From Chryseobacterium sp. H1D6B (lineage in GTDB: Bacteria; Bacteroidota; Bacteroidia; Flavobacteriales; Weeksellaceae): a stretch of DNA of 64,000 bases. Location of the stretch: contig NZ_JARXVJ010000001.1 of NCBI RefSeq assembly GCF_029892445.1, forward strand, positions 620,001 to 684,000. The letters run 5' to 3'. The notes below the pieces were generated by a model that had not been told where the DNA came from, searched no databases, and saw nothing but the letters and a program-made list of their open reading frames with translations. A program made the translations under genes and the position numbers. Positions 26,417 to 27,932 of the stretch are shown here, in pieces. Position 1 is the first letter of the stretch. Each line of letters opens with the position of its first letter.

Positions 26417-26626
26417 TTAAAACTTAGTAATTGGAGTAAAGCACTCCATATTAACAAGGACGCATTTCTTGCAGGGTCCTTCGAGTGCCCAATAAGCCTC
26501 ACAAGAGTAAGTGTCATTGGGGCCAAAAGCACCTGTCGGACAACCATTACAGTAAGTAGACGGTCCTATTCCAGCTCCATTAACTTGTTCTAAATTTCTT
26601 CTGTTTAATTTTTTCAAATTTTTCAT
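26417..26626 (-). CDS. GG-leader Cys-rich peptide 1
   Basis: 69 aa if started at the ATG at 26626, which aligns with its neighbours; two residues more if from 26632. Leader MKNLKKLNRRNLEQVNGAG, then a mature region with six Cys: CNGCP, SCEAYWALEGPCKKCVLV and MECF. Leaders of this form (MKNLKKL..NL..INGG) precede bacteriocin-like peptides in Chryseobacterium and are cut after the Gly pair by C39-type peptidases. Here the site reads GAG instead of GG. No modification or export gene lies nearby. Likely secreted; function unknown. Confidence 0.8.
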   Translation of the reverse strand: MKNLKKLNRRNLEQVNGAGIGPSTYCNGCPTGAFGPNDTYSCEAYWALEGPCKKCVLVNMECFTPITKF

Positions 26627-26645
26627 AGTCAATAGATTTCTTTTC

Positions 26646-26840
26646 TTATTTCAAAAAGGGAGGATTCTGGCAATCGTAGGCCACGTCCACACAACTTCTG
26701 CACCGTGGAGCTAATGCCTCATATTGATCGCAGGTATTAGAATATTCAGGTCCCGGCCCATAAGTATTGCCTATTGGGCATCCCGAACAATCCATTGAGC
26801 CTTTAATATTTTTCAATTTTGATCTTGATAATTTTTTCAT
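26646..26840 (-). CDS. GG-leader Cys-rich peptide 2
   Basis: 64 aa. Shorter leader MKKLSRSKLKNIKGS with no double Gly. Mature part keeps the six-Cys pattern of peptides 1 and 3: CSGCPIG, NTCDQYEALAPRCRSCVDV and YDC. The spacing of Cys and the GP..., ALxxxC[KR]xCV motif are conserved while the rest varies, as in families under selection for a fixed scaffold. Confidence 0.8.
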   Translation of the reverse strand: MKKLSRSKLKNIKGSMDCSGCPIGNTYGPGPEYSNTCDQYEALAPRCRSCVDVAYDCQNPPFLK

Positions 26841-26874
26841 ATTAATTTACTTTATTGATTGATAAATATTTAAT

Positions 26875-27081
26875 CTAGGAAATAAAAACAAAACAGTCTG
26901 TACTCACAAGCACACAATTTCTGCAGGTCTCTGGGAGATTCCAATACGACTCACAAGTGTTACTAATGTCGCCAGGCCCAAAAGCTTCTGTAGGACATCC
27001 ATTACAGTGTGAAATTGGTTTTACCCCTGATCCATTAATCTGCTCTAGATTTTTTCTGTTTAATTTTTTTAAGTTTTTCAT
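26875..27081 (-). CDS. GG-leader Cys-rich peptide 3
   Basis: 68 aa. Leader MKNLKKLNRKNLEQINGSG, then CNGCPTEAFGPGD, NTCESYWNLPETCRNCVLV and TDCF. Closest to peptide 1 in both protein and DNA, so the two probably arose by recent tandem duplication. Confidence 0.82.
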   Translation of the reverse strand: MKNLKKLNRKNLEQINGSGVKPISHCNGCPTEAFGPGDISNTCESYWNLPETCRNCVLVSTDCFVFIS

Positions 27082-27114
27082 ATTGGTTTAGTTTATAATA
27101 TAACATTTGATTGA

Positions 27115-27306
27115 TTAAGGATTAATATCCGGACAGCCGAGTGGACTTTGTGGATCATAAAAGTAGAGACAAACTCTACGGCCTTTTAAATCCGTACATA
27201 CTGCACATCCTGTAGGCCCGCAATCCAGATCCACTACACATTCGTTTACTCCTCCTCCATTAATTGATTTTAAATTTCCTCTGTTTAATTTTTGTAAATT
27301 TTTCAT
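27115..27306 (-). CDS. GG-leader Cys-rich peptide 4 (divergent core)
   Basis: 63 aa. Leader MKNLQKLNRGNLKSINGGG with an intact Gly pair, but a different core: NECVVDLDCGPTGCAVCTD, RRVCLYF and PLGCPDINP. Six Cys with different spacing. The leader is conserved while the core has been replaced, which is what is seen in bacteriocin-like families. Confidence 0.8.
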   Translation of the reverse strand: MKNLQKLNRGNLKSINGGGVNECVVDLDCGPTGCAVCTDLKGRRVCLYFYDPQSPLGCPDINP

Positions 27307-27356
27307 AATAATCGATTATTTTGAGTTTTTGATCTAATTTTGAAGAAGCTCCTTAT

Positions 27357-27542
27357 TTATTGAGGAAAACAATCCATACTCACTAATACACGACTTTTAC
27401 AGCATGCAGGTAATGCATTAAAAGCGTCACAAGATCTTGGCAGTCCAGGCCCATAAGGTCCTGGAGGACAATTTTGGTTACAGGTATCACCTCCGTTAAT
27501 TGTTTTTAAATTCTCTCTGTTTAATTTTTTTAGATTTTTCAT
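27357..27542 (-). CDS. GG-leader Cys-rich peptide 5, preceded by AGTTT repeat
   Basis: 61 aa. Leader MKNLKKLNRENLKTINGG, then DTCNQNCPPGPYGPG, RSCDAFNALPACCKSRVLV and MDCFPQ. Same family as 1-3, but the CxxC pair is changed to CC. First gene of the five-peptide operon; the ATG (27540-27542) lies 13 bases from an eight-copy pentanucleotide repeat, so its expression may vary with repeat number. Confidence 0.82.
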   Translation of the reverse strand: MKNLKKLNRENLKTINGGDTCNQNCPPGPYGPGLPRSCDAFNALPACCKSRVLVSMDCFPQ

Positions 27543-27555
27543 AATAATTTGATTT

Positions 27556-27595
27556 AGTTTAGTTTAGTTTAGTTTAGTTTAGTTTAGTTTAGTTT
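27556..27595. repeat. simple repeat (AGTTT)8, read AAACT on the minus strand
   Basis: Eight exact pentamers, 40 bp, preceded by GATTT. It lies in the leader/promoter region of the peptide operon. Five-base steps change spacing between upstream and downstream elements without touching a coding frame. Confidence 0.95.
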
Positions 27596-27652
27596 ATAAA
27601 TATAACAAATATCTTTATTCAAAATGAAAATTAATCACAATTAAAAGAATTA

Positions 27653-27690
27653 AATAAGAAAAGCAGTGCAAAAACACTACTTTTCTTATT
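27653..27690 (-). terminator. terminator of peptide 6 unit
   Basis: Long stem AATAAGAAAAG-AGTG / CACT-CTTTTCTTATT with one unpaired base on each side, followed by a T-rich run on the minus strand. Separates the peptide 6 unit from the operon of peptides 1-5. Confidence 0.8.
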
Positions 27691-27758
27691 TAATTATAAG
27701 CCGGCCCATACTGGATTTACAGCAGAAAATTTCTGACAGATGGATCTAAGAATGTCCA

Positions 27759-27932
27759 CTACAGCATTGGCTGATAACACATACCTCCCCCCGGACTACG
27801 CCAGCATCCCCAGGCACCATTTTTCTGATAACAAACAAGGGCTGCACCGCCACAGGTTTCTATTTGAAATGGAGTAAATCCACCATTTATACTTTTCTGT
27901 TCTTCTCTTGAAAGTTTTTTACTATTTTTCAT
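27759..27932 (-). CDS. GG-leader Cys-rich peptide 6 (four Cys)
   Basis: 57 aa from the ATG at 27932, chosen because it aligns with the other leaders (MKNSKKLSREEQKSINGG); the longer reading to 27965 adds no conserved residues. Core has four Cys: IETCGGAALVCYQKNGAWGC and GGGMCYQ. Different from peptides 1-5 and transcribed as a separate unit with its own terminator. Confidence 0.78.
   Translation of the reverse strand: MKNSKKLSREEQKSINGGFTPFQIETCGGAALVCYQKNGAWGCWRSPGGGMCYQPML

Follow-up and report, generated by a model that had tools for sequence, protein, structure and literature searches.

A six-gene array of leader-bearing, cysteine-rich peptides

The locus studied here raises the question of which proteins export and oxidise a row of small cysteine-rich peptides whose genes have no export gene near them, and of what use such peptides are to the cell. 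In the window, i.e. the whole stretch of 64,000 nucleotides of Chryseobacterium sp. H1D6B DNA that was analysed, six short ORFs, all read from the minus strand, follow one another between 27932 and 26417, where an earlier note made from the sequence alone had seen six leader-bearing genes in a row. Peptide 1 (26417..26626, type A, 69 aa, six Cys), peptide 2 (26646..26840, type B, 64 aa, six Cys, with a short leader), peptide 3 (26875..27081, type A, 68 aa, six Cys), peptide 4 (27115..27306, type D, 63 aa, six Cys spaced differently), peptide 5 (27357..27542, type C, 61 aa, six Cys, one of them displaced) and peptide 6 (27759..27932, type E, 57 aa, four Cys), all encoded on the minus strand, consist of a Lys-rich leader of 15 to 18 residues followed by a core of about 40 to 50 residues.

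The NCBIfam model NF047798 (leader_Chryseo) matched all six array peptides, and its curated cut-off of 23.5 bits was passed by five of them (peptides 1, 3, 4, 5 and 6, with 24.7 to 36.9 bits), whereas peptide 2 scored 18.9 bits. The leader is thus one that NCBI already recognises, but this model, annotated as 'bacteriocin-like protein', describes the 18-residue leader alone and not the array cores. Directly ahead of the expected cut, peptides 1 to 6 read GA, GS, GS, GG, GG and GG, respectively, and therefore the leader type MKNLKKLNRxNLxxINGG given in the earlier note extends to all six peptides by the NF047798 matches, but its literal GG to peptides 4, 5 and 6 only. Similarly, the six-Cys scaffold that had been assigned to peptides 1, 2, 3 and 5 is common to the first three, but in peptide 5, whose LPACCKSRV corresponds to LPETCRNCV in peptide 3, five of the Cys are in register and the sixth is shifted by four positions, so that the motif C[KR]xCV is absent from it. 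The different spacing described for peptides 4 and 6 was found again, in other cores with six and four Cys, respectively. In Pfam, the array peptides gave only sub-threshold matches to PF10439 (Bacteriocin_IIc; E 0.064 for peptide 4 and E 0.011 for peptide 5), the best score of the array being 16.1 bits against a cut-off of 27.1.

Core types of the array peptides and their conservation

A homologue scan of 84,980 species genomes yielded 40 confirmed loci, every one labelled Chryseobacterium, which by a pattern search carry zero to six peptides each, the combination of types (A to H) varying from species to species (the pattern requires at least two Cys, and it missed a match in locus L068). 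Together with the window, these loci provide 133 peptides, 127 of them outside the window; the number of Cys is four or six in 131 and odd in the other two, one with five and one with seven. Seven of the 133 are untyped, four of these belonging to one further type and three coming from locus L092, which is a hub locus in the sense used below. Types C, D and E, to which peptides 5, 4 and 6 belong, were present in 32, 14 and 8 of the 41 sources (the 40 loci plus the window).

Two outcomes against which the earlier note had warned, a lack of Cys-conserving homologues and a core Ka/Ks near 1, did not occur. The homologues retain the cysteines, with Cys columns that are invariant in types A, B, C and E and, in type D, one of six at 94%, a conservation that is partly by construction since the typing patterns used some of the Cys. 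The median core omega, obtained from pairs with dS of 0.05 to 1.5, was 0.39, 0.34, 0.27, 0.23 and 0.12 for types A to E, respectively. These data indicate that the core types are separate conserved lineages under purifying selection, with orthologues in other Chryseobacterium, and the conserved Cys columns, a median omega below 1 and the nadA neighbourhood described below argue that the array stands beyond chance. The 'swapped cores' of the earlier note were rejected, because each core type has orthologues across Chryseobacterium with conserved Cys and purifying selection; the tandem duplication that it reported is visible in peptides 1 and 3, which are duplicate-like (78% DNA identity over 108 nt), but the core replacement is not.

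An alignment of the six-Cys family (A2) comprised 62 of the 82 peptides typed as A, B or C; excluded were 19 of type C and one seven-Cys peptide of type B. These 62 cores had no NCBIfam family match better than E 0.037, and the A2 profile matched none of the solved structures at E up to 1. The fold predicted from the 62 rows had a mean pLDDT of 75 and a pTM of 0.53, and that of the type D core (A3, 16 rows) a mean pLDDT of 78 and a pTM of 0.52. Foldseek searches against the PDB returned a single match for the A2 model (E 8.6) and 49 matches for the type D model (best E 2.4), and, with matches this weak, no fold is claimed for either core.

Surroundings of the array

The peptide genes adjoin nadA in 39 of the 40 related loci, the fortieth being the hub locus L092, and thrA lies within the examined flank in 26 loci. 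When flank ORFs of at least 90 aa were clustered, those that recurred widely were nadA, gmk, miaA-like, yicC-like and thr genes and a few neighbours, some of these names being partly our own assumption, and a 167 aa ORF recurred in 3 of the 40 loci. Among the flank ORFs of this size, no obvious immunity gene was recognised at the 39 array loci and no sensor or receptor gene was recurrent beside the arrays. Flanks of up to 4 kb at the 39 array loci contained no homologue of the C39, HlyD or VKOR proteins of the hub. A transposase-like ORF pair (25013-26367), of IS3 type by our reading, lies between nadA and peptide 1 and, judging by its position, interrupts no peptide gene. Farther along the window, a region at about 36700-47300 consists mostly of minus-strand genes, ends in a probable tyrosine recombinase (45942-47312) and has the look of an integrated mobile element.

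Between peptides 6 and 5, a strong hairpin on the minus strand (27648..27695, z-score -6.5) is probably a terminator. Upstream of peptide 6, a motif match on the same strand (28035..28063) reads TTG-N18-TAnnTTTG, which we take to be the Bacteroidota promoter consensus, but this is weak evidence for a promoter, since 14 such sites occur on both strands of the 64 kb window. A search of 25000-28800 against Rfam gave nothing at gathering scores. A perfect tandem repeat of 8.8 copies of TTTAG (27553..27596, minus strand) lies just upstream of peptide 5, and none of the other 132 peptide genes has it upstream. The idea that it is a conserved phase switch was rejected, since 1 of the 133 genes has the repeat, which is thus a private trait at most, possibly a length-variable switch or a young expansion.

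A single exporter-oxidase locus elsewhere in the genome

The earlier note had found no export gene in the window and had supposed that the machinery lies elsewhere, and genome-wide searches agree with both statements. The genome, which is complete (4.56 Mb), contains a single match to PF03412 (C39), at 2.071 Mb and thus 1.42 Mb from the array, and the gene encodes a 730 aa C39-ABC exporter (120.8 bits). A single match to PF07884 (VKOR) was found at 2.073 Mb, in a protein of 502 aa, one half of which is a DsbA-like thioredoxin, and the same locus, referred to here as the hub, also encodes the adaptor HlyD and four peptides with leaders of the array's family. By our reading, the exporter retains a DCGPTCL segment, and the oxidase retains CxxC pairs in both its membrane and its thioredoxin part; we take the DCGPTCL segment and the CxxC pairs to be catalytic.

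Besides the C39 search, which led to the hub, the earlier note had recommended a search for radical-SAM genes, and here the whole genome had no match to SPASM (PF13186), the identical search being positive in 8 of 14 control genomes. Likewise, the DsbB profile had no match in the whole genome at E 0.001 (identical search positive in 6 of 14 control genomes), and the hub VKOR protein scored slightly below the DsbB cut-off. Two neighbours of the hub, a protein of 409 aa whose JAB-domain match is below threshold and a regulator of the AraC type (L032:6010-7239 and L032:13996-15768), are candidates for hub-linked functions.

Leader peptides across the genome

When the whole genome was searched with NF047798, 27 matches were over the cut-off and 50 were obtained at a permissive threshold. 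We retained 39 peptides, namely those among the 50 matches with E up to 0.149 and one at 0.384 that lies beside paralogues, and left out the remaining 11; Cys content was no criterion in this choice. The 39 leader peptides fall into 23 loci, the largest of which is the six-gene array, and 33 of them are encoded outside the array, including the four in the hub. The number of Cys is even in 37 of the 39 (binomial P 1e-9), as expected if the Cys are paired.

The C-C-CC-C-C spacing of the inhibitor cystine knot (knottin) was found in 6 of the 39 leader peptides (G000:C1:2018716, 2071632, 2071830, 2925347, 2925521 and 2925846; loci L041, L032 and L034) and in none of the six array peptides, and shuffled cores gave a mean of 0.17 and at most 3 in 2000 shuffles. 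Such knottin-like peptides with a C39-type leader are worth a separate study. A 94 aa leader peptide in locus L051 (G000:C1:3905754-3906038) is unlike the others, in that a long Gly-rich repeat is followed by four Cys.

Co-occurrence and co-loss of leader peptides and oxidase

Of 246 genomes of the family, 120 have leader matches, 164 have C39 and 123 have VKOR, and leader and VKOR occurred together in 116, that is, VKOR is present in 116 of the 120 leader genomes and in 7 of the 126 leaderless ones. Within the genus (115 genomes, 106 with leader matches), both were found in 105, the leader only in 1, VKOR only in 1 and neither in 8 (Fisher P 1e-10), and outside the genus (131 genomes) the corresponding figures were 11, 3, 6 and 111 (Fisher P 1e-9); these tests ignore shared ancestry, the leader counts per genome are lower bounds, with no more than 35 candidates scored in each, and the leader model, which is named for Chryseobacterium, may miss leaders outside the genus. 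Two genomes are marginal, with matches below the curated cut-offs, one for VKOR (G054, E 8e-4) and one for the leader. The array's six-Cys family occurs in 85 of the 246 genomes, all within the genus, and 85 of these 85 have VKOR and C39; the chance of its missing all nine VKOR-negative genus genomes is 2e-6.

In 24 genus genomes, exactly one C39 match stands against at least 5 to 32 leader matches each, at least 411 in total. Of the 104 genomes that have both C39 and VKOR among the matches listed (150 of each), 92 have the two within 6 kb, and the 12 pairs beyond 6 kb among these listed matches comprise 7 with no C39 on the contig, 3 at 7 to 13 kb and 2 far apart. In 20 VKOR loci, which were hand-picked for having VKOR and are not a random sample, the order was VKOR, C39, HlyD in 14, VKOR-C39 without HlyD in the stretch in three and another order in three.

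Four genomes have a leader without VKOR, with one or two leader matches each, and one of them (G112) is also without C39; seven have VKOR without a leader match, including G189, which has a hub-like exporter. On a nadA tree of 31 rows, the absence of VKOR amounts to 4 changes, 2 of them forced by well-supported branches, this being a tree of one gene and hand-picked rows in which 14 of the 28 inner forks are unresolved, the bootstrap is unsettled and two outgroup rows are long. Sisters on this tree are G203, with no VKOR, no leader match and only a 46%-identical exporter, and G220, with at least 13 leader matches, VKOR and a 92%-identical exporter. The nine VKOR-negative genus genomes fall into five whose only exporter is 45 to 47% identical, two in which no exporter was matched at E 1e-100, and two with a hub-like exporter. 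G190 has a 92%-identical exporter (G190:C1:1586375-1588588) with no VKOR and no leader match, and G177 a 90% exporter matched only from residue 98 (G177:C1:415552-417450) with no VKOR and one leader match; in both genomes, the peptides track the oxidase and not the exporter. It is possible that G177 and G190 are snapshots of a decaying system. None of the nine VKOR-negative genomes has leader peptides within 1.5 kb of nadA, but this absence is weak evidence, because 11 of 21 VKOR-positive genomes have none there either. Taken together, the distribution of the matches indicates that leaders and VKOR have been lost together repeatedly within the genus.

The N-terminal part of the oxidase

In the VKOR protein, neither the VKOR nor the thioredoxin match covers the N-terminal ~125 residues. 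PF03412 matched this N-terminus in 5 of 6 relatives scanned and was over the cut-off of 22 bits in 2, the distant relatives L101 and L112 (Peptidase_C39, 24.5 and 25.6 bits); L111, L095 and L098 had sub-cut-off C39 matches, and L102 had none. All five matches start at profile position 25 or later, past the segment that holds the catalytic Cys of the exporter, and the region that aligns with residues 1-110 is free of Cys in all 20 VKOR proteins compared. In the window genome's own oxidase, Pfam gave no C39 match, and a comparison of its N-terminus with the C39 profile (hhalign) was weak (P 0.002, probability 14%), five control profile comparisons giving E 0.2 or worse. Our hypothesis is that the N-terminus of the oxidase is a protease-dead C39 domain, which would bind the leader and bring precursors to the oxidase. 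If the C39-like domain does bind leaders, this would explain how disulfide formation could be coupled to export in a bacterium with no DsbB match.

Proposed secretion route and role of the peptides

We consider it fairly probable that the array is one spoke of a hub-and-spoke secretion system, in which a single distant hub would process disulfide-containing peptides that are most likely narrow-spectrum bacteriocins. The common leader would deliver a precursor from any spoke to the hub, where the C39-like N-terminal part of the oxidase would hold the leader and the VKOR-thioredoxin protein would oxidise the core Cys, with two or three disulfides per array peptide. The C39-ABC exporter would cut after the G-G/A/S site during export, with HlyD as the adaptor of the channel, and the other 33 leader peptides of the genome would be served by the same hub. 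Once mature, the peptides would most likely act as bacteriocins of narrow spectrum, similar to the bacteroidetocins, and no immunity gene would be dedicated to them. The genes, their synteny and selection, the single hub, and the co-occurrence and co-loss are observed. Export and oxidation of the array peptides by the hub are what we infer with good support; cleavage, disulfides and leader docking are proposed for these peptides, and the killing role is the least certain part.

A bacteriocin is favoured over a signal by analogy with bacteroidetocins; given this resemblance, our first guess is an antibacterial role, the missing immunity gene being no strong objection to it. The turnover of types between species would fit antagonism, and the low omega would fit other roles too. 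We also put forward, more tentatively and with somewhat more doubt than belief, a wider version of this reading, a 'venom gland' in which one hub with a leader-docking dead-C39 oxidase would serve about 40 varied disulfide peptides, some of them knottin-like, from 23 spokes, so that cores could be added without new machinery.

The alternative that survives best is that the peptides are exported by the hub, yet are not weapons but extracellular disulfide-rich inhibitors, binders or colony-matrix factors. The low core omega, 0.12 in type E, and the fixed chromosomal site suggest a steady useful role, and the array loci have no recognised immunity gene. Nevertheless, the number and kind of peptides vary strongly among species, which is a better fit to antagonism, and the nearest studied system kills (PMC6671954). 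We hold a non-weapon role to be unlikely.

Cell-cell signals similar to double-glycine pheromones, with the hub as their exporter, appear to us distinctly improbable: the leader type is that of known pheromone precursors, but the cores, with four or six Cys in about 40 to 50 residues, are large for pheromones, and sensor or receptor genes do not recur beside the arrays. RiPP cores carrying lanthionine or other crosslinks from enzymes encoded elsewhere, instead of disulfides, deserve very little credence, for although RiPPs also use this leader type and peptide 5 has a sub-threshold match to the rSAM-RiPP leader model TIGR04149, the genome lacks a SPASM match, Cys counts are nearly always even and the hub contains a disulfide oxidase gene.

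Comparison with known systems

The preferred reading, export and oxidation of bacteriocin-like array peptides by one distant hub, has its nearest counterpart in the bacteroidetocins. These have a double-glycine leader, a short Cys core, a C39-type ABC exporter and a thiol oxidoreductase, and their locus consists of four genes, for one precursor, the machinery and a five-TM protein (PMC6671954). The same paper describes mass spectrometry with no leader fragments and many fragments beginning directly after GG, gel migration consistent with disulfides, and attenuated activity upon deletion of the thiol oxidoreductase gene (PMC6671954). It also describes no obvious immunity protein, and producers that are sensitive to their own toxin (PMC6671954). 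The bacteroidetocin region is also reported to be functional in E. coli (PMC6671954). Like the bacteroidetocins, the present system has a leader with GG (in three of the six array peptides), a Cys core, a C39 exporter, a thiol oxidase and no obvious immunity gene. In contrast to them, it has 39 precursors in 23 loci and apparently one VKOR hub, its cores are varied, with four to eight Cys (two have odd counts), and the array precursors are without a C39-ABC exporter in their own locus.

With class II bacteriocins (PF10439), the array peptides share the double-glycine leader type, their matches being below the cut-off. An ordinary class II bacteriocin would be expected to come with an immunity gene, whereas at the array no export gene and, among ORFs of at least 90 aa, no immunity gene was recognised, and its cores are unmatched. 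In the prochlorosins, one processing enzyme acts on many dispersed and diverse precursors with a common leader, and lanthionines are made; here too one station would serve many precursors, but the shared chemistry would be disulfide formation.

In the literature searched, outside which lie many subscription journals, no description of the hub or the array was recognised. The leader is already known through its named NCBI model, and the parts belong to a known kind of peptide secretion. New with respect to this literature would be the arrangement as spokes around a single exporter-oxidase hub, the multi-type array at the side of nadA and the leader dock of the oxidase.

Precursors without adjoining machinery are easily overlooked by gene-cluster mining. 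In this bacterium the likely machinery can be named, since it was found once in the genome and is backed by co-loss, and the 39 peptides, together with the leader matches in 106 of the 115 genus genomes, can be tested as products of a single exporter and a single oxidase, each of which can be removed.
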